Source: a virus. Taken from it: 64,000 nt of DNA. The stretch is from IMG/VR virus record IMGVR_UViG_3300018481_000001, positions 115,935 through 179,934 of that record; one strand, given 5' to 3'. The notes under the pieces were generated by a model. The model saw only the letters and a list, made by a program, of their open reading frames with translations, had not been told where the DNA came from and did no database searches. Below are positions 29,346 through 63,776 of this stretch, piece by piece (within the stretch, counting starts at the first letter, position 1; the number at the start of each line of letters is the position of its first letter). The position numbers and the translations under genes were made by a program.

Positions 29346-30383
29346 CTATATCTCCTGAGAGAAATCCAAAGCGTCCGTATTGGGCGCCGTATCAGGCTGG
29401 CCATTCAAGGCACCCGTAGGCGGTCCTCCGGCCTCGAGCTGGCGCTGCGAATGTGCGTTCTGAAGAATCACAGCTTTCTTGTGATTGGCTTCGAAATAGT
29501 CGCACAACGTGTCGCAGATTTTCCGCGTTTGTTCGCTGGTCTTTTCACCCACGCGCACGTTGAAGATGTAATACGCCGCCTTGGCACCTGTTTGTTGCTG
29601 TTTCTTTTCCACGCCGAGCTCAAACACTCTCGACCAGAGAGCGGGCTGCTGTGCGAGGGTTCGAATCTTCCTGCCCGCTGGTGCACTGGTTTTCAGAAAC
29701 TCAACCCGGAAAATAGAATCCAGGTCCGCAGTCGCTGCGAAATAGGCATATCCCGCACTGCACTCAGGACGCATTCCTTGCTGGAATTGGCCGTAGGGGC
29801 ATTGCGCGCAGGCGCCATATCGTGTGCCAGTGACTGCATCGAGTGACTCACACTCGACTCCGGCATTTCCACCGACTGCCCATTTCTTTCGCATGAGATG
29901 CGTGTAGATGGGCAAGATTTTCAAATGGTCGCCCACGTGCACACCCGAGGTGGTGTACATATTTCCGGCACGGGTTTCGGCCGGCACGGCATCCTGTGAG
30001 GTCATGGCCTGCATTAGGCGCAGGTCGGGTACCTTTGCCTCCCCCGGACCATCAATTCCACGAATTGCCGGGCTCGCCTGTTCGGCCAGCGCCATCACTT
30101 TATTTTGCAGATTTTCGTCTTCGATTGATTCCGCCAAATCAATCAACACGCCAGAAATAGCCTGGAGCTTTTCTTCATATACAGCGATAGAGGAAGCTGT
30201 ATTATCCGACAACTCCTGCGAGGGAGCGTTAGCAGCGACGTGCGCGGGGGCAGTCGTTGCAGCGGGTGCCGGGGCATTATTAGGGGTTGCTGCGGGCGCA
30301 TTATTTGCGGCAGTCCCGTTGGCCGGTTGACCGTTGGCTGTGCCGCCGTTCGAAGCAGTATCGGACTTAATTTCTTTGGTCAT
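29346..30383 (-). CDS. hypothetical protein with low-complexity N-terminus and Cys cluster (345 aa)
   Basis: I choose ATG 30383 because GGGAG lies 9 bases upstream; the frame also opens at a TTG 15 bases earlier. The first 70 residues are rich in Ala, Asn, Thr, Pro and Gly and are probably disordered. A cysteine group follows near residues 195-225 (C-E-S, G-A-C-A-Q-C-P-Y-G and P-E-C-S), then a strand- and helix-containing domain and a polar tail. It is expressed upstream of the replication operon, separated by a strong terminator. It could be a single-strand DNA-binding or recombination accessory protein, but no motif proves this. Confidence 0.7.
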   Translation of the reverse strand: MTKEIKSDTASNGGTANGQPANGTAANNAPAATPNNAPAPAATTAPAHVAANAPSQELSDNTASSIAVYEEKLQAISGVLIDLAESIEDENLQNKVMALAEQASPAIRGIDGPGEAKVPDLRLMQAMTSQDAVPAETRAGNMYTTSGVHVGDHLKILPIYTHLMRKKWAVGGNAGVECESLDAVTGTRYGACAQCPYGQFQQGMRPECSAGYAYFAATADLDSIFRVEFLKTSAPAGRKIRTLAQQPALWSRVFELGVEKKQQQTGAKAAYYIFNVRVGEKTSEQTRKICDTLCDYFEANHKKAVILQNAHSQRQLEAGGPPTGALNGQPDTAPNTDALDFSQEI

Positions 30384-30464
30384 GTTGTTGGCTCCCAAGG
30401 GCCTAGTGTTTGGAACGTGAGCTTACTGCCGTTTCCATACAAAACAATCGAAAAGGAGACAAAT

Positions 30465-31142
30465 ATGCAGCTTCGCAGTTCCGACGCATTAACGCGTTAC
30501 TATCGTGAAGTCGAGGGCACGAGCATGCTCAGCGCTGAGCGTGAGCGTGAACTCATATGCATTTACCAGGAAAAACAGTGCCCTCGTGCACGCGATCTAA
30601 TTATTAAAGGCGCTTTGCGCTATGTAATTGCTGAGGCTCGGAAACACCCCCGTAGTTTCAGCGAGCGCACAATTTTGGAAGATTTAATCGCCGCTGGCAA
30701 TATTGGTTTAATTCGAGCCCTCAATAAATTCGACATTTCCGCTGGCACACGATTTCTTACCTACGCGAGCTGGTGGGTACGCCACGAGATTCGCGAAGAA
30801 AGCCGCCGTCTTGGTTTAGTACATGTCCCCGCTCATGCACTTGCTCGCGGAACGCGACCTCCGATGACTTCCGAATTAACCGAAAACAGTGTAGCCGATG
30901 TGGTTTCGTATTTACAGACACCTTCGTTGGCTCTTGAAACAGCGCAGAGCCTTATTTATCTCTTCGAGTCAACGCAACTGACCACGCGTGAGATATTTAT
31001 TATCAAGACGTCGTTCGGAATTCACACCGGACAAAAGACGCTTAAACAAATTGGACGTCTCCTGGAACTGACCGGAGAACGTGTCCGGCAACTTCGAGAG
31101 ACGGCCATTTTCAAGCTCCGGGGTGCCGCTGCGGAGTGCTAG
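30465..31142 (+). CDS. sigma70-family transcription factor
   Basis: A 225-residue sigma factor. Region 1.2 is seen in D-A-L-T-R-Y-Y-R-E-V, region 2.2 in D-L-I-A-A-G-N-I-G-L-I-R-A-L-N-K-F-D, and regions 2.3-2.4 in G-T-R-F-L-T-Y-A-S-W-W-V-R-H-E-I with the Trp pair used for DNA melting. A short region 3 follows. Region 4.2 is K-T-L-K-Q-I-G-R-L-L-E-L-T-G-E-R-V-R-Q-L-R. It is shorter than housekeeping RpoD and lacks region 1.1, so it is like group 2/3 or phage sigma factors. ATG 30465 has AAGGAG 7 bases upstream; the frame opens earlier at 30240 but that part lies across the divergent gene. It probably directs either host or phage RNA polymerase to phage promoters. Its stop overlaps the convergent ParB gene. 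Confidence 0.9.
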   Translation: MQLRSSDALTRYYREVEGTSMLSAERERELICIYQEKQCPRARDLIIKGALRYVIAEARKHPRSFSERTILEDLIAAGNIGLIRALNKFDISAGTRFLTYASWWVRHEIREESRRLGLVHVPAHALARGTRPPMTSELTENSVADVVSYLQTPSLALETAQSLIYLFESTQLTTREIFIIKTSFGIHTGQKTLKQIGRLLELTGERVRQLRETAIFKLRGAAAEC

Positions 31143-38256: not shown

Positions 38257-38466
38257 CTATATACAGGGGGAGTAGCGCTCTAGGAAAGCCCAAGGAACCA
38301 TCTCCATCATAGGTTTATGTTTTCTCGTAAATCTAATAAAAGCTGTAGCGGCAATCACCGTGACCACTTCGCCAGTTTCATCATGTTTCCACTGACTGGG
38401 CACTTCAAAATTAACGGTATCGTAGCCATTAGGGACCCCATACCCCAGGCCCGTATTACGTTTCAT
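38257..38466 (-). CDS. hypothetical protein (69 aa)
   Basis: ATG 38466 overlaps the stop of the SNF2 helicase gene (ATGA), so I take it as the start although the frame is open upstream. The product is strand-rich (D-T-V-N-F-E-V, then E-V-V-T-V-I-A-A-T-A-F-I-R-F). Unknown function. Confidence 0.55.
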   Translation of the reverse strand: MKRNTGLGYGVPNGYDTVNFEVPSQWKHDETGEVVTVIAATAFIRFTRKHKPMMEMVPWAFLERYSPCI

Positions 38467-40373
38467 GGCAATGCCTTTATCGTGGCAGTCTCCCGCTTCA
38501 TCTCGCGGTCGAACTTGCATAGTTCATCGTACAACTTTATGTTATATTTATGACAACGAGTGTAGTAGTCGTCGCACGTAGCGCATATCGCACTGCTCGT
38601 TACCAGTTGCGCAAAATCTATTTTTTGATCCAACGCTTTTGCTTTGGATTCATCCAAGGTGCCCCGGCCAATAAGCCGGTACACTACAACCGGTCGGTTT
38701 TGTCCGATGCGATAATTACGATCCATGGACTGCAGATAATGCTCAAGGCTCCAGGGTAAATTGTAATAGACGGTGTAGTTGGCCGCATTGAGCGTAATAC
38801 CAATGCCAACAGCCACCTGTCCCAGGAACACGCGGCAGTCCGGATCTTCATTAAAGCTCTCCATTTTTTCTTGGAGTGCGGAACGCGTACATCCGCCTTG
38901 CAGTCGAACGAACTTGATGCCAAGGCCTTTTACCACTTTTTCAATATCATTTAGTTCAGTAATAAAATTAGCCCAAATAATAACCTTGTTGGTGTACTCC
39001 TGAAGAACAGTCTCGAGAAGGTCATGGCATGCCTCAAGTCGGGCATTTTCCGTCAAGCGCATCACATGCACAGGTAAATCTTTTTGAACCACCGTGCAGG
39101 CTTTGGTATACGGCTTAATGCGTTGCACGCTGCAGTTGGAAACACTCGGGCAGTCGTTGCAAATACCGGGGTTTTTACGCGTCAAATTAACAAAGCCGCT
39201 CGACGCCTGGTCAACTTTATTGAGCAGCGTTATGGCTTCATCAGCCACGATGTATGGCTCAAGCTCCGGGCCCGTGTTGACCGTGAGCTTTCCCTCAAGG
39301 ATTTGTTGCCGTACAACAGCACCTGCCCCCAAATGCTTGTCATTGACCAACTGATTGTAGACGCGCTTTTGAGCATCTTCGACGGTAAATGGCACATCGA
39401 TAATTTGTTGCAGCGGCAGATCCAAGCATTCTTCCTTCGTTTTCCGCAAACCAATCAACTGCACACGTTTATTAAGCAAATCGAAATTCTTGTAGCCGAG
39501 GAGGTTTCGGGGCATGGCTTCTTCGGCTTCATATTCATAAAAGAGCCCAAACTTTTTACGAAACTCCCAGTAGTTTTCTGGCGTGAGATATTTCGCTAAA
39601 AATTTGAGTTGGGGGTAGAGATCATAAGGAGAGCCTAACGAAGGAGTGCCCGACAACAAAATACGGCGATAGGCACGCTGTGCGAGATGGATCGCGCTGA
39701 GGGTTCGTTTCGAATCGTGACTTTTAAGTTGGTGTGACTCATCGGCAACAATGCAGTTGTACTTGATGGCCAAAATCTCGTCGGCATACAGCGCAGCAGT
39801 GGCGTACGTGACGACCGTGGCGATGGGCGTGTGGGCCTGCGCCTGGGCAATCTTGGCCAGCTTCTCTTCTTTGCTGCCCTCCAAGACAACGACATCCGAG
39901 ACGTCGCCGTGCTTCTGGAACTCCTCTGCCCAGGTTGTGAGCATCACACGAGGACAGAGGATGAGCAGCCGGTCGTCCGTGTACCTCTGTAGGTCGACCG
40001 TGATTTTGCACTTCCCCAGACCTGGAGCATAGAAAAGACCCGCGCGCGGGCAGCGCAGAAGATGAATGACGCCGTCTTTCTGGTGCTGGTAGGGCGAAGT
40101 GACAAAAGTAAAGTTGTCGGGCAGAACGACGGGTTGCTCTAGCTGTGTCACATGCGCCGAGGCACGGGAAGACAACTGCAAATTGGGAAAAGCTTCACGC
40201 AGCGATTTTAGAACCATTTTAAAAAATGGAAAAAACGCAGGAAAACGCCACGTCTGGTCTCCACCGAAGTATGTTCCGGCGTATACTTTCTTCACGGCGG
40301 CATCCGTGGTGCGCAACGAAAAGACCGGCGTGCCATATACATCACCGAGCTCAAGCAGAGGGTAGTTCGACAT
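38463..40373 (-). CDS. SNF2-family (SF2) DNA helicase/translocase
   Basis: A 636-residue protein with both RecA-like lobes of SNF2 ATPases. Lobe 1 has a Walker A of form Y-A-P-G-L-G-K-C (Lys121; Cys replaces the usual Thr) and motif II D-E-S-H (211-214). A cysteine group (G-I-C-N-D-C, S-N-C-S, K-A-C-T) lies between the lobes and may bind zinc. Lobe 2 has G-I-G-I-T-L-N-A-A-N, Y-N-L-P-W-S-L and R-N-Y-R-I-G-Q (motifs V and VI). Likely roles are remodelling protein-DNA complexes or branch migration. I place the start at ATG 40373, which overlaps the divergent portal ATG; ATG 40436 is also in frame but would extend into the portal gene. Confidence 0.88.
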   Translation of the reverse strand: MSNYPLLELGDVYGTPVFSLRTTDAAVKKVYAGTYFGGDQTWRFPAFFPFFKMVLKSLREAFPNLQLSSRASAHVTQLEQPVVLPDNFTFVTSPYQHQKDGVIHLLRCPRAGLFYAPGLGKCKITVDLQRYTDDRLLILCPRVMLTTWAEEFQKHGDVSDVVVLEGSKEEKLAKIAQAQAHTPIATVVTYATAALYADEILAIKYNCIVADESHQLKSHDSKRTLSAIHLAQRAYRRILLSGTPSLGSPYDLYPQLKFLAKYLTPENYWEFRKKFGLFYEYEAEEAMPRNLLGYKNFDLLNKRVQLIGLRKTKEECLDLPLQQIIDVPFTVEDAQKRVYNQLVNDKHLGAGAVVRQQILEGKLTVNTGPELEPYIVADEAITLLNKVDQASSGFVNLTRKNPGICNDCPSVSNCSVQRIKPYTKACTVVQKDLPVHVMRLTENARLEACHDLLETVLQEYTNKVIIWANFITELNDIEKVVKGLGIKFVRLQGGCTRSALQEKMESFNEDPDCRVFLGQVAVGIGITLNAANYTVYYNLPWSLEHYLQSMDRNYRIGQNRPVVVYRLIGRGTLDESKAKALDQKIDFAQLVTSSAICATCDDYYTRCHKYNIKLYDELCKFDREMKRETATIKALP

Positions 40374-42093
40374 GAGTCTAAATCCAGGTTCGGAATTTCC
40401 GGGGTCAAGAAATTTGGGGGGATATGCCAACCCCATGCACGACTATATCAGTAGTTTTGCACCTCGGCAGCTCAAGCAGCTTTTCCGCTGGGTCGAGTAT
40501 CTCTACTACAACTCGGCGCATATTTTCGCAGCTCTGAAGAAGTTCGCAGAATACCCCGTCACAAGTGTGACGATTGAATCGAGCGATGAGTCCCTCAAGA
40601 AGAATTGGGACCGCGTTCTTCATAAAAGCTTGAAGATTAAACATGTGTCGCTGGCATGCGGGCTTGATCTGCAGCTTTACGGCAATTCGTTTACGTCCAT
40701 GTATCATCCATTTAATCGCTTTTTGATTTGTGCGCACTGCAATGCACGCACAGGAATTAAAAAAGTAAAATATAAATTCAATTTAAAAGAGTTAGAATTC
40801 AAATACCTGTGCCCTGCGTGTAAAAAAGATACGACAGGCACAGTCCGTGACGAAAAAGCTGCTGACGAAAAACGGATGAACGTAATTCGTTGGGACCCCA
40901 AACAGATCGACATTAACCACAATACGATTACGAACGAGTCCAAGTATTACTACACCATCCCACAAGAGGATAAACAGAAGGTTGAAAAGGGCGACGCCCA
41001 TCTGCTTAATACCATGCCCTTCGAGTTCATCCGGGCCATTAAAGAGGACAAGGTCTTCGAGTTCGCTGACGGTGCCATTTACCACATGAAGATCCCGGCA
41101 CCTGCCGGTATTTCTTCTCAATGGGGCTTTCCACCGCTTACAACCACCATCAAGCTCTTCTTTTACACGGCAATCCTACGTAAGGCCAACGAAGCCGTTG
41201 CGTTCGAGCACATTCTACCTTTCCGTGTGCTCCACCCTGCCCCCATTAGCGGCGCAGCAGACCCCGCTACGACCATCAACCTCCAGCGCTTTCGCATGGA
41301 GCTTGAAGTCAATATTAAAAAATGGCGGCATGACCCCAACCACATTATGTTTTCGCCCGCAGCGCTGGGCGTCACCACGATGGGTGGCCAAGGGCGAAGT
41401 CTACTGACGCTTGGCGAAATTAAAGAAGCTGAAGAAGAAATCATTGCAGCCATGGGCGTGCCGCGTGAGTTTCTCTATGGCGGACTTTCATTTACAGGCA
41501 GCTCGATCACCCTGCGTATGCTCGAAAATCAGCTCGAGACGTATACCGGACAGCTCAACGAACAATTGAATTGGATTATCACACAAGCTGCCAAAGTACT
41601 CGGTTGGACGCCAGCGGAAGCCAAGTATACGCCCTTCAAGCTCATTGATGACACCATGCAAAAGCAGACGTTGCTCGGTCTTGCGCAAGCCACACAGCAA
41701 ATCTCGAACACGACGCTTTACGACATGAATGACATCAACATTAATGACGAGCGTAAAAAGCGCATGCAGGAAGCGCTTGACGAAACACGCTTCCAAATGG
41801 ACCTGCAGCGTGAGACGCAGAAAATCCAAACTTCTTTGGCACAACAAGCGCAATCTGAAGCCGGTGGAAATGCGGGGCTCAACTACAACCCGCAGCAAGT
41901 TTTGGCGCAAGCGGAGAGCGTTGTCGACCAGCTGTCGCAAATGGACCCTGGTTCGCAGAAGTCCATGCTTTCGCAGCTATCACAAGAAGACCCGGTTATG
42001 TATGCCGTCGTGAAAGACCGCTGGCAAACACGCCAATCGCAGCAAAAACAACAGGCCGTCGCTGCCATGACGACGGGACAAGCGGCACAGTAA
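40372..42093 (+). CDS. portal protein with zinc-ribbon insertion
   Basis: A 573-residue portal, the dodecameric ring at the head vertex through which DNA enters. Typical portal features are V-P-R-E-F-L-Y-G-G-L-S-F-T-G-S-S-I-T-L-R near residue 365-385, followed by a long helix (M-L-E-N-Q-L-E-T-Y) and a Gln-rich C-terminal tail. Unusually, residues 120-150 hold two C-x2-C pairs (C120, C123, C147, C150) that form a zinc-ribbon-like insertion. The start has AGAGGG 9 bases upstream. Overlap of its ATG with that of the helicase makes CATG serve both genes. Next gene starts at its stop (TAATG). Confidence 0.85.
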   Translation: MSLNPGSEFPGSRNLGGYANPMHDYISSFAPRQLKQLFRWVEYLYYNSAHIFAALKKFAEYPVTSVTIESSDESLKKNWDRVLHKSLKIKHVSLACGLDLQLYGNSFTSMYHPFNRFLICAHCNARTGIKKVKYKFNLKELEFKYLCPACKKDTTGTVRDEKAADEKRMNVIRWDPKQIDINHNTITNESKYYYTIPQEDKQKVEKGDAHLLNTMPFEFIRAIKEDKVFEFADGAIYHMKIPAPAGISSQWGFPPLTTTIKLFFYTAILRKANEAVAFEHILPFRVLHPAPISGAADPATTINLQRFRMELEVNIKKWRHDPNHIMFSPAALGVTTMGGQGRSLLTLGEIKEAEEEIIAAMGVPREFLYGGLSFTGSSITLRMLENQLETYTGQLNEQLNWIITQAAKVLGWTPAEAKYTPFKLIDDTMQKQTLLGLAQATQQISNTTLYDMNDININDERKKRMQEALDETRFQMDLQRETQKIQTSLAQQAQSEAGGNAGLNYNPQQVLAQAESVVDQLSQMDPGSQKSMLSQLSQEDPVMYAVVKDRWQTRQSQQKQQAVAAMTTGQAAQ

Positions 42094-43321: not shown

Positions 43322-43521
43322 GAGAACCTAATCAATCCCATCAAGAGAATCTCTTCGGCACCGTACACTTTGTTGGCGCCGCACCCTTCACATTCGTATC
43401 CTCGCGCATCGGGTTCGACGCTGCCACCCGTCCACTCCTGGCATGCAGTGCAAAACCCATCGCTGTCGTTACAATGTTGGCGAAACTCTTCTTCGCTCAT
43501 TTTCTGAATATTATCGGCCAT
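43318..43521 (-). CDS. small zinc-ribbon protein (67 aa)
   Basis: Start ATG 43521; GAGAG lies 5 bases upstream. Two C-x2-C knuckles (F-C-T-A-C-Q and Y-E-C-E-G-C-G) separated by about 20 residues predict one zinc site. It leads a two-gene minus-strand unit whose promoter must lie in the 100 bases before 43621. Likely a small regulatory or nucleic-acid-binding protein; family unknown. Confidence 0.6.
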   Translation of the reverse strand: MADNIQKMSEEEFRQHCNDSDGFCTACQEWTGGSVEPDARGYECEGCGANKVYGAEEILLMGLIRFS

Positions 43522-43621
43522 GATGTCTCTCGGTATTGCGGTAAAAGTATCTAGAATAACGGTATCGGATCTGTGTGCATGACCATCTACTTTTACCACC
43601 TCCTACGGAGTATTTAGAACT
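43522..43621. promoter_or_regulatory. divergent intergenic region with 10-bp inverted repeat
   Basis: The 100 bases separate a minus-strand zinc-ribbon gene from the plus-strand AcrVA2-like gene. GGTAAAAGTA (43540-43549) and its complement TACTTTTACC (43588-43597) are placed symmetrically near the two ends, 38 bases apart. This is the layout of two divergent promoters or of two sites bound by one regulator. A small CTCC/GGAG hairpin (43600-43610) overlaps the ribosome binding site of the plus gene. No clear -35 and -10 pair is visible on either strand. Confidence 0.4.
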
Positions 43622-44533
43622 ATGTCACTCACAGACATATTTGAATCGTTAGATCGCAATGTGCTCCTCCGCTGGGCAGGCGGCATGCAGACATCCCTGA
43701 ATAAGTTTTATCAAACGATTCAAAATGCACCCGACGAAATCATGCAACGCTCGCTCATCGTTCTGTGGAACTGGGCCCGGCATGGTTATCAAAGCGTTGA
43801 AATGCCCCAGACGTATATGGCCGCACTCATGGCTACGGACGTAAGTCCTGAAATCATGAAAGACCAACAGCTGCCATGGCCTGCCATGGAAATTCAAATT
43901 CCGCCTGGTTTGATTACATCCAGCCACGGCGAAGTCTTTAGTCTGATGATTAGTGACATTCCAAAACAAGTAACGCTAGCAGGTCAAATCGCACGCGCGA
44001 AATATTTAATTACGTATACTGATTCTATCTCTACGGCGGGCCAAACCTACGAAAGTCTCGAAGAGCTAGCAAACCGACATACTCTTTTGGCCCCACACTG
44101 CATGGTTACTGATGAACTGTCCGCTCTCTACAATAAAGATTTAGAAGACCGTATTTGGACCATGCTGCTACGGCTGCTCGCAAATACAATTTTACTTATC
44201 AACACCGCACGTATTGACAAACCTACAGTTTTTCCAAAACTTGCGGCGCGCGCTCCGAAGCATGGAAAACCCCGTATTAATACGCACCGTATGGGTACGA
44301 CGCTTTCCATGGATTGTCGTCCGTCGATTCGAAATTTTATTAGCGGCAATACTCGAAATGAACCGTCCATCACGACTTTGGTTCGTGGGCATTGGCGTAA
44401 CCAGGCGCATGGGCCGAAGTGGTCCTTGCACCGTGCGATGTGGGTCCACCCTTTCTACAAAGGCACAGGCCCTCTCGCACCCCACGTGACCAAAATAAAG
44501 CCGCCCACAGACAACCCTGCTTCCGCTAAGTGA
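43622..44533 (+). CDS. protein with AcrVA2-like C-terminal V-R-G-H-W-R motif (303 aa)
   Basis: The C-terminal 50 residues contain V-R-G-H-W-R-N-Q-A-H-G-P (254-265) followed by a strand with R-A-M-W-V-H-P-F-Y-K-G. The anti-Cas12a protein AcrVA2 has, from memory, a very similar C-terminal end with I-R-R-G-H-W-H and a strand ending in R-W-Q-P. The N-terminal part is helical and then strand-rich, with P-W-P-A-M-E-I near 89, and otherwise resembles nothing I know. Homologues of this type occur in phages whose hosts may lack Cas12a, so an anti-CRISPR role is only a possibility. ATG 43622 has GGAG 11 bases upstream. It lies just before the RNA polymerase genes. Confidence 0.55.
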   Translation: MSLTDIFESLDRNVLLRWAGGMQTSLNKFYQTIQNAPDEIMQRSLIVLWNWARHGYQSVEMPQTYMAALMATDVSPEIMKDQQLPWPAMEIQIPPGLITSSHGEVFSLMISDIPKQVTLAGQIARAKYLITYTDSISTAGQTYESLEELANRHTLLAPHCMVTDELSALYNKDLEDRIWTMLLRLLANTILLINTARIDKPTVFPKLAARAPKHGKPRINTHRMGTTLSMDCRPSIRNFISGNTRNEPSITTLVRGHWRNQAHGPKWSLHRAMWVHPFYKGTGPLAPHVTKIKPPTDNPASAK

Positions 44534-44542
44534 TGTGCGGTC

Positions 44543-44554
44543 TATACTCCACGC
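44543..44554 (+). promoter_or_regulatory. candidate -10 element for the RNA polymerase genes
   Basis: TATACT (44543-44548) ends 6 bases before the ATG at 44555 and no Shine-Dalgarno sequence lies in between or just before it. The same distance is seen at 16081 (TATATT) and 9287 (TAAACT). It would give a leaderless transcript. No matching -35 box is visible. Confidence 0.3.
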
Positions 44555-47500
44555 ATGTCCGACCCCGTCACGCCTGTACTCCAATACCTCGACGACAGCC
44601 GTGGGCAGATCTACAAAAAGACTTTGGAAGGTCTCCAGGGTCTTTTTCCTATTTTAGGTAAAAACACCACCCTCGAGCTCAAAGACCTCAAGGTCAAACA
44701 AAAAGAATATTCGTCCAATGACGAAAAGGCTGCCTTGCTCAGCGGCCGAACGTTGCATGAGCCTGTTCAAGGCATGCTCACGCTGCGCGACAACAAAACA
44801 GGAAAGGTGCTCGACACCCAGCAACACACGCTGCTGCATCTACCCTACTACACGCCGCGTCGTAGCTTTATTGTGGGCGGGAACGAGTACAACATTCCCG
44901 CGCAGCTTCGACTCAAGCCCGGCGTATATACGCGCGAACGCAACAACGGTGAGTTTGAAGCGGCATTCAATCTAAGCAAGGGCCGCAATTTTCAAATTTC
45001 CATGGAGCCCGAATCCGGAAAGCTCCACATGGAATTTGAGAATTCCAAAATACCTCTATATACGGTCCTGCGTTCTTTGGGCGTACAGGACGTCGAAATT
45101 AAAAAGTTCTGGGGCGCCGGACTTCAAGAGCTCAATGCCAAAGCTTCTCGCGAAAAAGAAGAAGCAGTATTGGCCAAGCTGATTGGCAAAATCAAGCGCA
45201 CCAGCGAATCGATTCCCAACTCGCTCGAGGGGAAACGTAAATACGTACATGATTATTTTGCAGCTACACGTATGAGCGGCAAAGTTACGCAGCGTACCCT
45301 TGGCACGCATTACGATTCGGTCAGTCCTGAATCCTTGTTGGTCGCAGCCAAGAAACTCATCGACGTGCAAAAAGGCCATGCGCACGGAGACGACCGCGAC
45401 AGTCTAGAATTTAAGACGGTGCATTCCGTTGATGATTTTTTTAAAGAGCGCCTCGAAAAAGACGCAAAGCGCACCATTGTTCGAAAGCTCGGTTTGCGTA
45501 TGAATTACGCAGATAATCCTGTCATAAAAGAAATCGTGCCGAGTTCTTGCTTTACGAAGAGCATCAACGGTTTTGTGGTGCAGTCTGCGTTATCCAATCC
45601 ACCGACTCAAATTAATCCGGTTGAGATTGTAGACCAGACGATGAAAATCACGTCGCTCGGAGAAGGCGGCATCAGTAGTACACGCGCCGTTACCAACGAG
45701 TCTCGCAAGGTTCACAACACACACCTTGGGATCATCGACCCCGTGCGCACGCCTGACGGGGCCAAGGCGGGCATCGACGTGCGTCTGACTATGGCAGCCC
45801 ATCGTGATGCTGCGGGTAACCTCTACGCCTATGCACGGGACGCCCGCACCGGCAAAATGACCCATGTCGAAGCAACGCAGCTGGCCAAGAGTCACATCGC
45901 GTTCCCAGGTCAAGATGGACGCTCCCACTGGGATGTAATTCATGGAACCGAAGTCATCTCGGTTCCCAAAGCCAAGGTTGATTACATCATCCCCAACCCG
46001 GCGTTCATGTTTACGCCGACAACAGCGCTAGTTCCTTTTATTAATGGAATGCAGGGAAATCGCGCCATCATGGGTGCGAAATTTCAAACGCAAGCGCTGC
46101 CGTTGGTTGAGCGCGAAGCGCCTTATATCCAAGCCGGTGCACCTCGAGCTGGCCAAAGCATGGAAAAAGAAATCGCACGATTAGTGCTTCCTACAGCGCC
46201 TGTCGATGGGACTGTTGAAAAAATTGACGACGATTATATTTACATTCGCCCGCATGCCAAAACAGCCGCAGCCAAAAGCGATCTTATTAAATTGCGCTAC
46301 GACACCTATTTTCCTTTGGCATCCAAGACCTATTTGCACAATGACGTGCATGTCAAGGTAGGTGACAGTGTCAAAAAAGATCAAACCCTTGCCGAAAGCA
46401 ATGCAACCCAAGGGGGTGTACTGGCACTCGGTAAAAATATGTCCATCGCCTACATGGCGTATTACGGGAAGAATTCCAATGATGCCGTGGTCATCAGCGA
46501 AGGCGCTGCCAAAAAACTAACCTCTGAGCACATGTACAAAGAAACATTGCTCAAAGACGCAGAAACAGTGTTGGGTAAACATAAATATGGAATTTATTAC
46601 GGCATGCGTTTTACGGCGATGCAGCTGGCCAAGTTAGACGAAAACGGCATTGCCAAAAAAGGCGCCAAACTTGATTTCGGAGACCCTGTTATTTTAGGTC
46701 TTAGAAAATCAGCACCCACGCCCGAAATGCAACTCTTGGGCAATTTCAACAAATCTCTAGTCAAACCTTACCGAGACGTTGCCGTAACGTGGGATCGGCC
46801 CAGCATTGGTTTTGTGCAAGACGTCACCAACGCTGCTCGACAAGTTATGGTCACAATTCGTACGCAAGAACCTATGCGTATTGGCGACAAACTTGCCAAT
46901 CGGTTTGGCGGCAAGGGCGTGGTGTCCGAAATTATTCCCGATGACCGCATGATTCAAGACGAGCGTAAAAAGCCCGTCGATATTTTGTTTACATCAGCGG
47001 GTGTCGTAAGTCGCATCAACCCAGCACAAATTGTCGAAGCAGCCCTTGGAAAAGTCGTAGAAAAAACAGGCAAGCCTATTATCATCCCGCAATTTCAAGC
47101 AGGGGATAACGTACAGTTTGCAAAAAACCTATTAAAAGAACACGGCCTCAAAGACAAAGAAACCGTACACGATCCAGTTTCTGGTCGTGATATTCACAAC
47201 ATCTTTGTGGGTCGATCTTATATTCACAAATTATTTAAGTCGACAGATACAAATTATTCAGCACGCGGCGTAACCAACTACGACGCCAACATGCAACCTG
47301 TCCGTGGTGGTGACGAAGGTGCCAAGGGCCTAGGCAAAATGGAAATGAATGCCCTCTTGGCACACAACGCACGCAACGTGCTCAAAGAAGGTCTAACAAT
47401 CAAGGGTGAACGTAGCGATGCCTTCTGGCGTGCCTTTGAATATGGGCTTCCCACACCCCATGCTAAAAATCCATTTGTTTCTGATAAATTCGTTGCCATG

Positions 47501-48946
47501 TTGCAGGGCGCCGGAATTAACGTAAATAAAAATGGTTCCATGGTGTCACTCGCACCAATGACAGATCATGACATAACGCGCATGTCGTCAGGTGCCATTG
47601 GTACGCCGAGCCTTGAAAAATCAAAGAGCTTTATGCTCAACGCAAAAAATATGCAGCCTGAATCAGGCGGGTTATTTGACGCGAATCTTACAGGAGGTCT
47701 AAGCGGCACACGCTGGGCGCACATGGAATTGCCCGAGCCGGTGGTAAATCCTGTTTTCGAAGATCCCGTTCGTCGATTGCTTGGCTTTACCAAAAAAGAA
47801 TTGCGCGAAGAGACTGGTAGAGTAGGTGGGCAAGCAATTCGCGAAAAACTCAATGCGCTCAAGCTAGATACTTTAGAAAAAGAACTGTATCAAAAAACAA
47901 AAACTGCGCGCGGTGTCGAGCTTGACAATGTTGTCAAACAGCTCAAAGCACTGCGTGCATTAAAGTCCGGCGGGTTCAGTAAAGCTGGAGATGCTTATAC
48001 CCTTAGCCGCCTTCCTATCGTACCGCCCATTATGCGCCCTATCCTACCCTCACAGCGTGGGGGTGAACTACAGGTCGCAGACATTAATTATCTTTATCGT
48101 GATGTAGGACTCGCCAGTTCATCGCTACAGAGCAGCAAAGAAACAAATCTTCCAACTTTGATTTCGGAGGGTAGAAACCATCTAAATGACAGTATCAGTG
48201 CTTTATTTGGTTTAACCAAACCTACGAGCCCTCAACTGCAAGGACGCGACGTCAAAGGGCTTCTCGAACAGATTTCAGGCTCAGGCAGTCCCAAGCAGGG
48301 TTTTTTGCACCGTAAGATCCTCAAGCGCCAACAAGACTTGACCGGCCGTGCAACTGCAACACCCGACAACACTTTGGGGATAGACCAAATTGGCGTCCCC
48401 GAAGAAATGCTCTGGACCACCTACAACAAATTTATCATGCGTGGGCTTATTCATCAGGGCTACAAACCCTTGGATGCCAAGCAAATGATTGAAGACCGCC
48501 ACCCGGCGGCCAAAAACGTATTGAATGTAGAAACCAAAGTGCGCCCCATGTTTGTTAACCGGGCGCCGACACTACACAAACATAATTTTGTCGCAGCTTA
48601 CCCTGTCGCAGTGTCCGGGAAATCCCTGCGTGTCAATCCGTTTATGGAAGCCGGACAAAACCTGGACTATGACGGCGATACGATGCAACTTCACGTACCC
48701 GTCACCGAAAAAGCAGTCGAAGAGGCACGAGGACTAACACTATCGAATCTGCTCTTTGGGGACAAGCATCGCAATGATTTGATGATATTCCCACAGCATG
48801 AAGCCATCCTAGGTGCCTACCTCGGTTCCACGAAGACCCAAGGTGCCGTCCAGACGTTCAAGACTAAAAAAGATGCGCTGGACGCCTATCATCGGGGGAC
48901 CATTACTATGGCTAGTCCCATCTTAATTCAGGAGCTGGACGCGTGA
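44555..48946 (+). CDS. RNA polymerase beta subunit fused to N-terminal part of beta'
   Basis: A 1463-residue fusion. Residues 1 to about 995 correspond to the whole beta subunit: G-D-K-L-A-N-R-F-G-G-K-G-V at 777-789 and the C-terminal G-G-D-E-G-A-K-G-L-G-K-M-E-M near 918-931, which carry beta active-site contacts. Without a linker beta' begins: M-S-S-G-A-I-G-T-P at 1010 matches its start region, but the N-terminal zinc-binding C-x-C...C-x2-C domain is absent. The double-psi barrel contains N-L-D-Y-D-G-D, so all three magnesium-binding aspartates (1371, 1373, 1375) are kept. The protein ends soon after, before the bridge helix, which is on the protein encoded at 49489. The gene pair should transcribe phage genes independently of host core enzyme. 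No alpha or omega subunit was recognised in the window. Confidence 0.93.
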   Translation: MSDPVTPVLQYLDDSRGQIYKKTLEGLQGLFPILGKNTTLELKDLKVKQKEYSSNDEKAALLSGRTLHEPVQGMLTLRDNKTGKVLDTQQHTLLHLPYYTPRRSFIVGGNEYNIPAQLRLKPGVYTRERNNGEFEAAFNLSKGRNFQISMEPESGKLHMEFENSKIPLYTVLRSLGVQDVEIKKFWGAGLQELNAKASREKEEAVLAKLIGKIKRTSESIPNSLEGKRKYVHDYFAATRMSGKVTQRTLGTHYDSVSPESLLVAAKKLIDVQKGHAHGDDRDSLEFKTVHSVDDFFKERLEKDAKRTIVRKLGLRMNYADNPVIKEIVPSSCFTKSINGFVVQSALSNPPTQINPVEIVDQTMKITSLGEGGISSTRAVTNESRKVHNTHLGIIDPVRTPDGAKAGIDVRLTMAAHRDAAGNLYAYARDARTGKMTHVEATQLAKSHIAFPGQDGRSHWDVIHGTEVISVPKAKVDYIIPNPAFMFTPTTALVPFINGMQGNRAIMGAKFQTQALPLVEREAPYIQAGAPRAGQSMEKEIARLVLPTAPVDGTVEKIDDDYIYIRPHAKTAAAKSDLIKLRYDTYFPLASKTYLHNDVHVKVGDSVKKDQTLAESNATQGGVLALGKNMSIAYMAYYGKNSNDAVVISEGAAKKLTSEHMYKETLLKDAETVLGKHKYGIYYGMRFTAMQLAKLDENGIAKKGAKLDFGDPVILGLRKSAPTPEMQLLGNFNKSLVKPYRDVAVTWDRPSIGFVQDVTNAARQVMVTIRTQEPMRIGDKLANRFGGKGVVSEIIPDDRMIQDERKKPVDILFTSAGVVSRINPAQIVEAALGKVVEKTGKPIIIPQFQAGDNVQFAKNLLKEHGLKDKETVHDPVSGRDIHNIFVGRSYIHKLFKSTDTNYSARGVTNYDANMQPVRGGDEGAKGLGKMEMNALLAHNARNVLKEGLTIKGERSDAFWRAFEYGLPTPHAKNPFVSDKFVAMLQGAGINVNKNGSMVSLAPMTDHDITRMSSGAIGTPSLEKSKSFMLNAKNMQPESGGLFDANLTGGLSGTRWAHMELPEPVVNPVFEDPVRRLLGFTKKELREETGRVGGQAIREKLNALKLDTLEKELYQKTKTARGVELDNVVKQLKALRALKSGGFSKAGDAYTLSRLPIVPPIMRPILPSQRGGELQVADINYLYRDVGLASSSLQSSKETNLPTLISEGRNHLNDSISALFGLTKPTSPQLQGRDVKGLLEQISGSGSPKQGFLHRKILKRQQDLTGRATATPDNTLGIDQIGVPEEMLWTTYNKFIMRGLIHQGYKPLDAKQMIEDRHPAAKNVLNVETKVRPMFVNRAPTLHKHNFVAAYPVAVSGKSLRVNPFMEAGQNLDYDGDTMQLHVPVTEKAVEEARGLTLSNLLFGDKHRNDLMIFPQHEAILGAYLGSTKTQGAVQTFKTKKDALDAYHRGTITMASPILIQELDA

Positions 48947-49131
48947 TTGATGCCCACTACACACGAGGACAGCGCGCCGCGTTCCAAAAACTCGGTCTCG
49001 ATGTCGAAGATTTGCCTGACTATCTCGAAAATACAAAAAGACGGTTGCGGTTTCAAATACAGCGCCTCAATGCCGTAGCAGGTTTTCCAGCAGGTAGTCG
49101 TATTGAACTGCCTATCAATTATGAGGTTTAG
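48943..49131 (+). CDS. small protein between the two RNA polymerase genes (62 aa)
   Basis: Starts with GTG overlapping the stop of the beta-beta' gene, with AGGAG upstream. The product contains Y-T-R-G-Q-R-A-A-F-Q-K-L-G-L-D-V-E-D, a motif repeated in the next gene. It is mostly helical. It could be a spacer left from splitting beta', or an RNA polymerase accessory; neither is shown. Confidence 0.6.
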   Translation: MIDAHYTRGQRAAFQKLGLDVEDLPDYLENTKRRLRFQIQRLNAVAGFPAGSRIELPINYEV

Positions 49132-49133
49132 TC

Positions 49134-49487
49134 GTGCCTTTTAAGTCTCAAGCGCAACGCCGCAAGTTCTACGCTCTCAAGGCACGCGGCGAAATGTCGC
49201 AAAAGACCATTGATGAGTGGCAAAAAGAAACACCTAAAAAATTGCCCGACCGTATCAAAAAGCACGCCTATTGGTCAGGTCAACGCGCGGCACTTGAGAA
49301 GCTCGGGTTTGATGCAGAGAGCTTTGAAGAATTCGCACAAGCGGACCCTACAGCGGATGCGCTGCCTAACGGCAACAAGCTCGATTCTTCCGAAAGCGCC
49401 ACTACCAAGCAGGACAAGCTTATTAATCCTGCCTCCCCCTGGACCGGCGCTACCCCGTTTGTTGAAACAAAAGCCGTAGATATCTGA
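49134..49487 (+). CDS. small protein between the two RNA polymerase genes (117 aa)
   Basis: GTG start at 49134. The N-terminus has the S-Q-A-Q-R-R-K-F-Y-A-L-K-A-R-G-E pattern that I know from many phage proteins. Residues about 45-65 have Y-W-S-G-Q-R-A-A-L-E-K-L-G-F-D-A-E, nearly the same as the motif in the gene before it. The C-terminal 50 residues are polar and probably disordered. The beta' C-terminal gene starts one base after its stop. Confidence 0.65.
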   Translation: MPFKSQAQRRKFYALKARGEMSQKTIDEWQKETPKKLPDRIKKHAYWSGQRAALEKLGFDAESFEEFAQADPTADALPNGNKLDSSESATTKQDKLINPASPWTGATPFVETKAVDI

Positions 49488-49488
49488 C

Positions 49489-51300
49489 ATGGCAAAAACA
49501 CTCGGCCATTATCTTTTGGACGAAGCCATTCCCAAGGCTTACCGTCCGGCGGGTGCGTATAACAAAAAAGATTTGCGTGCCAATATGGTACGCCTCGCCA
49601 AAGACCGTCCGCAGGAATACACCGATGTCATTACCAAAGTAAAAGACCTCGGAGATCGCTTCGCTACACACATGGGGGTGTCCGTAGGGCTCGACGACAT
49701 TGAGCCTCTTTATGCGGCTCGAAATGCCATTACCAAGCCTGCGCTCGCCCAAGTTAAAAAGGCGCGCAGCATGGACGAGCGTCGTAGCATTATCAGCGAT
49801 ACCCAAGACAAATTAATTCAACACGCACTTGTGCATCCAGGAACCATGGGCATGATGGCCCGCTCAGGCGCTCGAGGAAGCGCCCTACAGCTCATGCGTG
49901 GCGTAGTCGCGCCTGCTGCGAGTGCAGACGAGCACGATCGCATTCAACCCTGGCTCACCATGCACAGCTACGCCGAAGGGCTCAAACCTTCCGAGTGGTG
50001 GGCAAACAATCGTGAAGCACGGATGGCACAAATTAAATCCCAAGTCGAAGTCATCGAACCGGGAGATTTGTCGAAAATATTGGTCAATAATACAAGTGAC
50101 CAAGTTATTACTATGCCCGATTGCGGCACGCGCAACGGCTTGAATATGAATATTACAGACCCTCATATTTATGATCGTTTTCTTAGCAAGACCCAAGGCG
50201 GGTTTGCACGCAATACCGTTGTTGATCAGCGCCTCTTGGCACAGTGTCAAAAAATAAAAATACAAAAACTGTGGGTGCGTTCGCCAATGACGTGCGAAGC
50301 ACGCACGGGCCTGTGTCAACATTGCGTAGGACTCGGCACTACCGGCGCCCGCGCTAAAATTGGCGACAATATCGGCATTCGCGCCAGCCAAGCTATCGGA
50401 GAGCCATTAACTCAGCTCGCACTCAATGCAAAACATGGTGTCCGTATTTCTGGAAAAAATCCCATGGACGTTTCAGGTCTTGAAGGATTTCGCATGATCC
50501 TCGAGAGCCCAGAAGCCTTCAAAAACAAAGCAACCTTGGCGCCCACAAGCGGTACCATTCGTAGTATTCAAACTGCGCCGCAAGGCGGCTATTACGTCAC
50601 CATTGCAGATGACAAACTGCACGTCCGCCCTGGACTCTTGCCCGTCGTTAAAGTCGGAGACCAGGTACACGCCGGAGATGTTCTATCCCAAGGCGTACCT
50701 AAACCCGAGGAAGTCGTAAAATACAAAGGGTTGGGCGCCGGTCGTGATTACTTGGTTAAAAAACTGCACCAAATTTATGAAGACAACGGCATAACCAGTG
50801 ACCGCCGTAATTTCGAAGTTTTAGCCAAGGCGACACTCAACCATGTACGCATCGAAGACGTGCATGATGACGATGCAGCCGAACACGGGTTGATGCGCGG
50901 AGATATCATTAATTACAACACTTTTAAAAATATTGTTGCAGGACGTGACGAAAATACACCGATTGGACAAGCGCATGGTAAATACCTGGCAGCCCCTTTA
51001 CTCTATCATCTCGTGGGCACGCGGATAACCGAACCCATGGTGACTGAATTTAAAGCAGAAGGTGTAAAACAGGTAAAAACTGCTATCAAAGCACCTACGG
51101 TCAGTGCCGTCATGGCACCGGCCACACAAAATCCACTCCTCAACCCAGACTGGCTTGTACGGCTAGGTCACCGTTATCTTAAGAAATCTATCGTTGAGGG
51201 TGCTCAAAAAGGTCAGCAGTCTGATATTCATGGCGCACACCCGCTACCCGGCATGGTGTTCAGCTCTGAATTTGGTGAAGGTGTGTCCGGTCGGTATTAA
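49489..51300 (+). CDS. RNA polymerase beta' subunit, C-terminal part
   Basis: A 603-residue protein that continues beta' from the bridge helix: M-G-M-M-A-R-S-G-A-R-G-S-A near 120-132. The second beta' zinc site is intact (C212 in D-C-G-T; C269, C276 and C279 in M-T-C-E-A-R-T-G-L-C-Q-H-C). The trigger-loop region is I-G-E-P-L-T-Q-L-A-L-N-A-K-H: the catalytic His is kept (His316), while the usual Met-Arg pair is Leu312-Asn313. The C-terminal clamp region with W-L-V-R-L-G-H-R-Y and a final G-E-G is present, so it is not truncated. Together with the upstream fusion protein it should form the enzyme core. Confidence 0.93.
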   Translation: MAKTLGHYLLDEAIPKAYRPAGAYNKKDLRANMVRLAKDRPQEYTDVITKVKDLGDRFATHMGVSVGLDDIEPLYAARNAITKPALAQVKKARSMDERRSIISDTQDKLIQHALVHPGTMGMMARSGARGSALQLMRGVVAPAASADEHDRIQPWLTMHSYAEGLKPSEWWANNREARMAQIKSQVEVIEPGDLSKILVNNTSDQVITMPDCGTRNGLNMNITDPHIYDRFLSKTQGGFARNTVVDQRLLAQCQKIKIQKLWVRSPMTCEARTGLCQHCVGLGTTGARAKIGDNIGIRASQAIGEPLTQLALNAKHGVRISGKNPMDVSGLEGFRMILESPEAFKNKATLAPTSGTIRSIQTAPQGGYYVTIADDKLHVRPGLLPVVKVGDQVHAGDVLSQGVPKPEEVVKYKGLGAGRDYLVKKLHQIYEDNGITSDRRNFEVLAKATLNHVRIEDVHDDDAAEHGLMRGDIINYNTFKNIVAGRDENTPIGQAHGKYLAAPLLYHLVGTRITEPMVTEFKAEGVKQVKTAIKAPTVSAVMAPATQNPLLNPDWLVRLGHRYLKKSIVEGAQKGQQSDIHGAHPLPGMVFSSEFGEGVSGRY

Positions 51301-51369
51301 TTATTAGTTGGTAATCACTCAAGTTTGCCACTACATTCCCTGTGTTTTCGTTCCCAGGAGCTTCCGCCC

Positions 51370-52554
51370 ATGACAAGTCCCCTTTTTAAGCGCGCGTTTG
51401 TGCGCGGCCTCAATGCTCAGCTCATCCGTGAAGGCGTCATCTTCTACCCCAGCAAAGAAGCTGCTGATGCGACAGCGGACTTTGTGGCGGACCAATCCAA
51501 CATGCCCGACCCTGCCACCGAGGGCGACAGGCTAGACATCAAGACGGCCGGCATTTTAGTGAACCATCTGATCGAAGGCGCTGAGTACCAGTGCAAGCAG
51601 GCGGGAAATCAATATAACCCCGGAGTAACCAAGACCGCCCAGGAAGCGACTCCCGAGTCGATCGCATATGCCGATGCGATTGCGCTGATGGAAAAGGCTG
51701 CTGAAGAGCACGGGCCGAACACCCTCCAAAATGCATCGCCCAACTCAGCGATTGCTGCGAGTGAACTCCGTGAGCGTCCGGAGAATTACGCCAACACCGG
51801 GCCCGGTATTTATGAGCCCTTCCCCTCAGCCGCGCAGGTGGGCATTGAAACGGAGCCCGAGGCTCCCGGTACCCAAGGCGTACCTGGTACCAATTCCGTC
51901 GTTGCCAAAAGTGCAGCGCTCCAAAGCATCGTCCGGCGCATTGCCAAGACAGCTGGAAACGATATTGGCGACGCCCCGCCGAATGACTTGCGCGCAGCAG
52001 CCAAAAATTCTGATGCCGCCAAAGAGGAGCTCGAGGCACGTCCCGAAGGGTACGCCAATCACGATGAGCATCAGGGCCGTACAGAATTTGACATTCCTGC
52101 CGCTGCCCAAGCTGGCGACGAAAAGAACATCACGCACAAGAGTGCATTTGACCGGTTGTTCGAAGCAACCGCCGAACGCATCTTGCCCTACCTCCCTGCC
52201 AAAATGGCTGATGAGCAAAAGGTCGCACATATCCGGCACACCATGGGTCTCGATACCCCGGAACGTGCCGCTTATCTCGGCAACATTTACCTGAAGCTCG
52301 GGGCAGCACAGGAAAGTGCGAAATCGGTTCATGACCATTTCCTTAAGGCCGCTTCCGAAGAAGAAGAAGAAAAGGAAAAAGAGCCGAAGAACGACGACGA
52401 GAACAAAGAAGCGGACCCCGATGACAAGGAAAAAGAGCCCGAGCTTCCGGCCTTTATCCAGAAGAAAGAATCGTCTGTCCGACCCGCGCCAACGCTCGCG
52501 ACACGAAATACTCTTCAAGGGATCGCATCGCGTCTGAAGAATCTGCATGCTTAA
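51370..52554 (+). CDS. K-x-A-rich head-module protein with internal repeats (394 aa)
   Basis: I choose ATG 51370, which has AGGAG 9 bases upstream. The product has an internal duplication: E-L-R-E-R-P-E-N-Y-A-N near residue 130 and E-L-E-A-R-P-E-G-Y-A-N near residue 220. Several K-x-A motifs occur (V-T-K-T-A, M-E-K-A-A, A-K-T-A). Residues about 325-370 are a run of Glu, Lys, Asp and Asn, probably disordered. The composition fits a scaffold or internal head protein, though this is inferred from location. Confidence 0.6.
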   Translation: MTSPLFKRAFVRGLNAQLIREGVIFYPSKEAADATADFVADQSNMPDPATEGDRLDIKTAGILVNHLIEGAEYQCKQAGNQYNPGVTKTAQEATPESIAYADAIALMEKAAEEHGPNTLQNASPNSAIAASELRERPENYANTGPGIYEPFPSAAQVGIETEPEAPGTQGVPGTNSVVAKSAALQSIVRRIAKTAGNDIGDAPPNDLRAAAKNSDAAKEELEARPEGYANHDEHQGRTEFDIPAAAQAGDEKNITHKSAFDRLFEATAERILPYLPAKMADEQKVAHIRHTMGLDTPERAAYLGNIYLKLGAAQESAKSVHDHFLKAASEEEEEKEKEPKNDDENKEADPDDKEKEPELPAFIQKKESSVRPAPTLATRNTLQGIASRLKNLHA

Positions 52555-62846: not shown

Positions 62847-63776
62847 ATGTCGAACGCGCTCGTCCGTACGGAGACCGAAAAGGTCTCGGCTCAATTCATC
62901 AACAGCAATTTCGTTCGCAAGCTTGACCAGGGTCTGGTCAAAGAGGCGACCGAGGCTGGCTCTGCTTTCATCCGCACCAAGCTCCGTCAGGAGAGTTTCG
63001 TGCGTGAGATTCTGCCGCCCATTTTGCTCGCGGACGATGAAATCGATCGCGACGAAAATACCGACCAGCCCAAGAAGATTGTCGAAAAGGAGCCGGATTC
63101 ATCGGCGACTTTCGTACCCTTCTACGGCACCGGGACGCGCACGATTTTTAAGGGTCCTCGCTATGCCGTCTATTTCGGCAAAATCGAGACCCAGCGCTTC
63201 CGCAAGTCGAAGTTCGAACTGATGACCTATCAGAACGATATTCGTAAAATCCTCGCGGACAACGCCGTCAAAGATATGGCTGACCAGGAAGACCGTAAGT
63301 TCATCGATACGGTCAACCAGATTTTGGCCACTGCACCTGACCAGGTGGTTAAAGCCACCGGATTTCACTCGGGCGCCTTCAAGGCAGGTTTCCAGAATCT
63401 CTCCAATCGGCGTACGCCCATTGGGCGTATCGTGATGACTAAATCTACGTTTTATGAAGCGTTGGATTTGCCAGCCACCACGGTCGGTGACGATATTGCC
63501 TCCGCGCATTATCGTGATGGTGTGGAAAAGGAAGAGCGCCTTTGGGGCTTCCCGGTGACCACCACCATCAAGAACGATATTCTCGTTCCACAAGACAATG
63601 CATCGGCGTCCATTTACCTCTTCGCGCCGGAGAATTTCCTCGGCAACTTCTTCCTGCTCCAGGATGCCACTCTTTATATCAAGCAAGAGGCGGACATCAT
63701 TTTCTTTCACAGTTATGAAGCACTTGGCATGGGTATTGGTAATACCGCTGCCATTACGCGCATCGACATTGCCTAA
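62847..63776 (+). CDS. major capsid protein
   Basis: A 309-residue protein with the features of an HK97-fold capsid: a charged N-terminal arm, a long helix region (D-I-R-K-I-L-A-D-N-A-V-K-D-M), a strand-rich A-domain in the second half and a final T-R-I-D. AAGGA lies 7 bases before the ATG. The place after decoration-like, scaffold-like and protease genes is the standard order. Unlike its upstream neighbours it has few K-x-A motifs (V-K-E-A near 33 and V-K-A at 170-172). Confidence 0.82.
   Translation: MSNALVRTETEKVSAQFINSNFVRKLDQGLVKEATEAGSAFIRTKLRQESFVREILPPILLADDEIDRDENTDQPKKIVEKEPDSSATFVPFYGTGTRTIFKGPRYAVYFGKIETQRFRKSKFELMTYQNDIRKILADNAVKDMADQEDRKFIDTVNQILATAPDQVVKATGFHSGAFKAGFQNLSNRRTPIGRIVMTKSTFYEALDLPATTVGDDIASAHYRDGVEKEERLWGFPVTTTIKNDILVPQDNASASIYLFAPENFLGNFFLLQDATLYIKQEADIIFFHSYEALGMGIGNTAAITRIDIA

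Follow-up and report, generated by a model that had tools for sequence, protein, structure and literature searches.

The RNA polymerase genes and their setting

The window, by which we mean the whole 64 000-nucleotide stretch of viral DNA that was analysed, carries two plus-strand genes for an RNA polymerase (RNAP), separated by two small open reading frames (ORFs). The first gene (44555..48946) encodes chain A, a protein of 1463 residues in which a complete β subunit (residues ~1–995) passes seamlessly into the N-terminal part of β′ (residues ~1000–1463). The second (49489..51300) encodes chain B, 603 residues in length, which corresponds to the C-terminal part of β′ from the equivalent of the TTxGR motif (KTLGHYLL) onwards. 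Chain A occurs once in the 179 934 bp virus record that contains the window.

Against Pfam, chain A matches Rpb2 domains 2, 3, 6 and 7, followed in the same chain by domains 1 and 2 of Rpb1. A search of the PDB assigned residues 66–982 to β (1iw7_C, E = 1e-67) and residues 1089–1458 to β′ (8i23_D, E = 2.5e-41), and Foldseek matched an AlphaFold2 model of residues 560–1463 (pLDDT 86.0) to both β and β′ chains of the PDB. At the junction the last β strand, GINVN... (LGINIE in bacteria), leads directly into the β′ N-terminus MTDHDITRMSSGAI, which aligns with bacterial ASPEMIKSWSHGEV. The β active-site motif GDKLANRFGGKG (GDK..KG; residues 777–788, 46883..46918, plus strand) and the catalytic NLDYDGD of the β′ double-psi barrel (residues 1369–1375, with DYDGD at 1371–1375; 48659..48679, plus strand) are both present, and GDK..KG and DYDGD are conserved in an alignment of nine members. 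NADYDGD or NADFDGD takes the place of NLDYDGD in 38 of 90 distinct relatives. With DxDxD in β′ and the conserved lysines in β, chain A holds the two double-psi barrels of a cellular-type enzyme.

Chain B gave a strong Pfam match to Rpb1 domain 5 and a weak one to domain 4. The PDB search identified it as β′ from upstream of the bridge helix onwards (E = 1e-36), and its AlphaFold2 model (pLDDT 87.7) was matched by Foldseek to β′ chains. Model and alignment together place the bridge helix, 36 residues in length, at residues 167–202 (49987..50094, plus strand) and the trigger loop at residues ~295–335 (50371..50493, plus strand); the presence of both is again characteristic of cellular-type two-barrel enzymes. 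The trigger-loop histidine is retained, and the adjacent TMR motif is altered in the cut forms shown in the alignment. Between these elements lies the second β′ zinc site (50122..50325, plus strand), formed by Cys212, Cys269, Cys276 and Cys279. The four cysteines are conserved in the nine-member alignment and invariant in one of 61 members, and the C-x6-C-x2-C part is kept in 88 of 89 distinct members. The β′ clamp helices are also retained in the phage forms aligned.

Other parts of the bacterial enzyme are missing. Bacterial β′ reads GLFC...FGP, then a four-cysteine zinc domain, then GHIEL; in the aligned phage proteins GLFDANLTGG runs straight on to WAHMEL (47678..47728, plus strand, in the window), and a CxxC at the position of this first zinc domain was found in none of 90 distinct members. 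The β flap tip is absent from the cut and uncut phage forms aligned. Profile searches, with positive controls, gave no match above the family cut-off for α in 40 genomes or for ω in 25, a result from which divergent functional equivalents could escape. The enzyme therefore falls outside the bacterial core as defined by α, ω, the β′ N-terminal zinc domain and the β flap tip.

These results agree with the preliminary description of the locus, made by reading the sequence, which had proposed a β–β′ fusion without a linker that continues through NLDYDGD, a separate protein with the bridge helix, zinc site 2 and trigger loop, the loss of the N-terminal β′ zinc domain and no recognisable α or ω in the window. 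The profile searches might have placed chain A on β alone; they recovered β′ domains as well.

The RNAP genes are accompanied by genes for structural proteins and a sigma factor. The portal gene (40372..42093, plus strand), the product of which is 33% identical to the Gp204 portal of Salmonella phage Arash, lies upstream and the major capsid gene (62847..63776, plus strand; 42% identical to Arash Gp226) lies downstream, which puts the RNAP genes inside the head module. A sigma70-family factor with regions 2 and 4, homologous to Arash Gp196, is encoded at 30240..31142 on the plus strand. Sigma70 region 2 was detected in 19 of the 20 cut-form genomes examined and in eight of 20 with an uncut form. 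A further sigma-like protein is divergent in sequence and homologous to Arash Gp10; it matches Sigma70_r3 above the cut-off and region 2 weakly. It was present in all 27 genomes tested, of both the cut and the uncut kind; in the genome of the window it maps to positions 112414–113085 of the record, outside the window.

Relatives of the enzyme and its place in the virion

Scans of IMG/VR and of a phage collection recovered the fusion together with the cut in 95 distinct loci, among them the cultured Salmonella phage Arash and Vibrio phages D69 and D181, with a single apparent exception, L082. This locus was rejected as an unfused case: it is a single 2024-residue frame interrupted by four TGA codons, all at positions where relatives have tryptophan. 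In L193 an uninterrupted frame of 2010 codons is found in the standard code. Profile scans built on these two loci recovered 108 distinct single-chain loci from viral contigs, typically ~2000–2170 residues long, and all four probes fell in one ORF in 100 of them. At least four further loci are one chain if TGA is read as tryptophan, since the breaks in L192, L194, L195 and L247 are TGA codons (11 of the 13 align with tryptophan), and the breaks in L428 and L434 also lie within one frame.

Bacterial genomes served as a control: with this method rpoB and rpoC were separate genes in 77 loci, and the only fusions were in two Helicobacter. Host DNA seems to account for many phage-collection records in which rpoB and rpoC are separate (Acinetobacter phage MD-2021a, for example, where they lie beside ribosomal protein genes), and such matches were used only as a bacterial outgroup. 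The fusion with its cut is thus not private to one genome but fixed in a large clade of phages, cultured isolates among them. Hundreds of related viruses carry the enzyme, either cut or as a single uncut protein. Given these uncut relatives, the combination of fusion and split in the window amounts to a single-chain enzyme cut once.

Arash (Gp206 and Gp216) and Vibrio phages D69, D181 and D148 resemble the window in the fusion, the cut and the loss of the zinc domain, with the portal gene upstream, structural genes downstream and chains A that are 34–36% identical. They differ in detail: Arash has a 4.7 kb spacer with opposite-strand genes, and a homing endonuclease gene is inserted in chain A of D181. 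Insertions inside chain A were also seen in a few other loci, with LAGLIDADG and intein domains in L122 and L092 and LAGLIDADG in L073.

In purified Arash virions, Gp206 (chain A) was detected at 100% coverage with 3516 spectra, more than any other protein, the major capsid protein included; Gp216 (chain B) gave 1210, the sigma-like Gp10 467 and Gp217, an SNF2-like helicase encoded directly after chain B, 1148 (PMC10585845). Per residue this corresponds to 2.3 spectra for A and 2.0 for B, a rough estimate that fits a 1:1 pair. Around the RNAP genes, Arash and the window have in common the portal, the major capsid protein, the sigma factor and further structural genes, and on this homology, with 36% identity between the two chains A, packaging in the phage of the window and hence a virion RNAP is the best reading here too.

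The Arash authors noted that abundant enzymes could be carried over from infection, and the same preparation contained 116 proteins, many of them metabolic (PMC10585845). The enzyme might accordingly be non-virion, used for the transcription of middle or late genes and present in the particles as a contaminant. We consider this unlikely, since chain A tops all proteins in purified particles, above even the major capsid protein, and the genes sit in the head module, with the portal gene on one side and the capsid gene on the other. The recoded L082 provides a further argument. Its RNAP sits among plus-strand genes that contain in-frame TGA codons. Most of the larger opposite-strand ORFs contain none, as would be expected if the polymerase is a late gene.

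The order of fusion and cut

In a tree with a bacterial outgroup the phage enzymes form one clade. The cut forms are a single clade nested within paraphyletic uncut forms (FastTree support 0.992; IQ-TREE PMSF SH-aLRT 100). Constraining the uncut forms to monophyly cost 4 log units (AU test, p = 0.31), so that cut and uncut forms as sister groups are not rejected and the order of events rests on parsimony and the best tree. We favour, without regarding it as proven, the more parsimonious order in which the fusion would have come first and the cut second. In the reverse case the cut form would be ancestral and the single-chain forms would have arisen by re-joining. The AU test leaves room for this in allowing sister clades, yet in the best trees the cut forms are nested within the uncut ones and, because bacterial β′ is uncut, an ancestral cut requires one event more, at precisely this site; we judge it improbable.

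Chain A ends at about the equivalent of bacterial ...lhskIkV, and the start of chain B, KTLGHYLLDEAIP, aligns with bacterial TTVGRxxFNxxLP. In the uncut L193 protein a few residues (WTEEFKLNGKPMTIGQYMINSDLP) link the equivalents of the two chains, and the cut site is contiguous with the uncut chain. The alignment thus places the cut just before the TTxGR motif, in the loop that follows the β′ catalytic barrel and precedes the approach to the bridge helix.

In the window the intervening DNA holds an ORF of 62 residues (48943..49131, plus strand), which overlaps the end of chain A by 4 nt and has no Pfam or PHROG match, and one of 117 residues (49134..49487, plus strand); both carry the motif GQRxAxxKLG. 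Across the 95 cut loci the spacers range from 0.5 to 5.7 kb and contain differing genes, some on the opposite strand.

Chains A and B might be exons or halves that are joined after transcription or translation, by way of an intron or a split intein, the working enzyme then being one chain. The homing endonucleases and inteins inside chain A of L122, L092, L073 and D181 lend this some colour. It is nevertheless very improbable: an Rfam search of 43500–52500 found no intron, the members aligned have clean stop (A) and start (B) codons, typical members lack intein domains flanking the cut, and the spacers are wholly different among relatives, with opposite-strand genes in that of Arash. That the split is an artefact of one real β–β′ gene (a sequencing frameshift, an assembly error or an in-frame stop), as might be suspected from the existence of uncut relatives and from L082 and L192, whose apparent breaks are only TGA codons read as tryptophan, can be dismissed: in the window two small ORFs separate genes A and B, which do not share a reading frame, a cut at the same place is common to 95 distinct loci whose spacers vary, and the Arash products are annotated and detected separately. 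Frameshift, assembly error, intron and intein were accordingly rejected as causes of the cut, and the split stands as genuine, as had originally been proposed.

Comparison with known RNA polymerases and implications

The preliminary description had contrasted the enzyme with those of phiKZ-like phages, and the contrast holds, since the latter consist of four or five pieces (PMC7598289). The virion and non-virion enzymes of phiKZ/AR9-like phages resemble that of the window in having two barrels, in lacking α and ω and in a β′ cut after the catalytic barrel; the non-virion enzyme has a dedicated specificity subunit. They differ in that β is cut too, there is no β–β′ fusion and no sigma factor is recognisable. 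Furthermore, phiKZ-like genomes encode two enzymes each, while the 180 kb record has one chain A, with an intact, fused β. Compared by eye, the β′ cut of AR9 appears to lie upstream of that in the window and the cut of YerA41 downstream.

Fusions and cuts are also known in bacteria. The Helicobacter β–β′ fusion, recovered here as a control, has the same order as that of the window, and Wolbachia also has such a fusion. The cyanobacterial rpoC1/rpoC2 split lies in the same general region, the γ chain running ~64 residues further than chain A. All these bacterial enzymes keep α, ω and the first zinc domain, unlike that of the window. The cuts of the window, cyanobacteria, AR9 and YerA41 all fall in the segment that connects the catalytic barrel to the bridge helix.

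The single-subunit RNAPs of crAss-like phage phi14:2 (gp66), YonO and P23-45 have both barrels in one chain, as here, and gp66 and P23-45 gp96 are virion enzymes. RNAPs of the crAss/YonO type form a second clade of two-barrel enzymes that is highly divergent (PMC10770324). By sequence this clade cannot be aligned with bacterial β and β′, to which the enzyme of the window, in contrast, gives strong matches and with which it aligns readily over most of its length. A deep-branching clade of phage RNAPs, mReC, is recognisable by β and β′ profiles (PMC7481178). That paper speaks of β and β′ subunits, mentions no fusion or cut for the group and contrasts it with the fused crAssphage enzyme (PMC7481178). 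Its motif filter, NADxDGD together with COG0085 and COG0086 matches of at least 800 residues, would drop the NLDYDGD of the window (PMC7481178). The capsid protein of the window, with a weak match to PF05065, does not match PF07068, the family of the mReC major capsid protein. One mReC metagenome, 3300017989, also yields a single-chain locus (L262/L360), so that the mReC and single-chain sets may overlap.

In the literature on phage RNAPs one finds jumbo enzymes made of many pieces, single-subunit enzymes that are divergent and, in broad outline, fused-barrel derivatives (PMC7598289, PMC7824862, PMC10770324), and the Arash paper labels the two proteins β and β′ without mention of the fusion (PMC10585845). 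A non-exhaustive search turned up no publication that describes phages with a full-length β–β′ chain of the bacterial type, whether cut or uncut. The enzyme is a new architectural form of phage two-barrel RNAP, some members of which have already been named in print without description of their architecture.

Taken overall, the best explanation, in which we place considerable confidence, is a virion-packaged two-barrel phage RNAP without α or ω, in which β and β′ would have been joined into one chain that was later cut once, after the β′ catalytic barrel and before the stretch that leads into the bridge helix. Homology and anatomy suggest that chains A and B fold together as a catalytically active β–β′ core free of α and ω, the covalent link replacing the α dimer that normally holds the two subunits together. 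The first β′ zinc domain and the β flap tip would have been lost, and the barrels, bridge helix, trigger loop, zinc site 2 and clamp helices retained. The enzyme is probably made late, packaged in the virion and injected with the genome, with the sigma-like factor of the phage supplying promoter specificity. An injected polymerase with its own sigma-like factor would make early transcription independent of the host polymerase, and a host-independent, virion-packaged RNAP is most likely what the two genes encode.

We are evenly divided over a broader proposal, namely that throughout a large clade of tailed phages early transcription is carried out by a self-sufficient RNAP of one chain, or one chain cut once, free of α and ω and packaged in the virion with a conserved factor of sigma regions 2–3, the form of which would match the loss of the flap tip, on which sigma region 4 docks. 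Such an enzyme would be the simplest known of the bacterial β–β′ type and sister to the bacterial RNAPs.

The recurrence of a β′ cut in the same inter-domain stretch in cyanobacteria, phiKZ-like phages, YerA41 and the clade of the window points to a structurally tolerant site. Surveys that treat phage β and β′ as separate genes can miss the fused architecture. Cells use four or five subunits for a task that the phage machine appears to perform with one or two chains. It may therefore offer a minimal bacterial-type RNAP that can be purified from one or two genes, and the dispensability of the α dimer once β and β′ are one chain becomes testable. Since cultured hosts and phages exist (Salmonella phage Arash and the Vibrio phages), the biology of the enzyme can be tested directly.

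TGA codons and insertions in the polymerase chain

In genes encoding beta and all of beta' as a single chain (loci L082/L192, from IMG/VR 3300009703_000014; L194/L197/L257; L195; L247), 11 of the 13 in-frame TGA codons occupy tryptophan positions. Judged from the sequences, TGA at these positions is stop-codon recoding. The L082 genes with in-frame TGA lie mostly on one strand.

The longest ORF for chain A, the fusion of beta to the N-terminal part of beta', is 2831 amino acids in length. The beta part in L021 (9001-13791) and L122 (14-8506) holds an inserted inorganic pyrophosphatase domain (PF18823; E 9e-35 and 2e-32). The fused chains of L122, L092 and L073 contain LAGLIDADG domains, those of L122 and L092 also intein-splicing domains, and that of Vibrio phage D181 (L003) is broken up by a homing endonuclease gene (9800-10417).

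Genomic surroundings

A chain A-like gene is also present in L273 (contig JAFQXE010000002.1, binned in a Thermoguttaceae MAG), which is probably a phage contig placed in the same bin as its host.

SNF2-type helicases are encoded near the RNAP genes in the window (38463-40436, minus strand) and in the Salmonella phage Arash, where the gene for Gp217, plentiful in virions, lies immediately 3' of that for chain B, the remainder of beta'. They recall the RNAP-linked SNF2 helicase of jumbo phages (PMC7824862).

A shared short motif

Seven ORFs of the window phage's genome, against an expectation of 0.3 in shuffles, share the motif GQRxAxxKLG(F/L/M), frequently near the N-terminus. Two lie between the chain A and chain B genes (window 48943-49131 and 49134-49487) and five at record positions 1798, 10469, 23037, 23636 and 24028. 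The motif is possibly a virion sorting tag.
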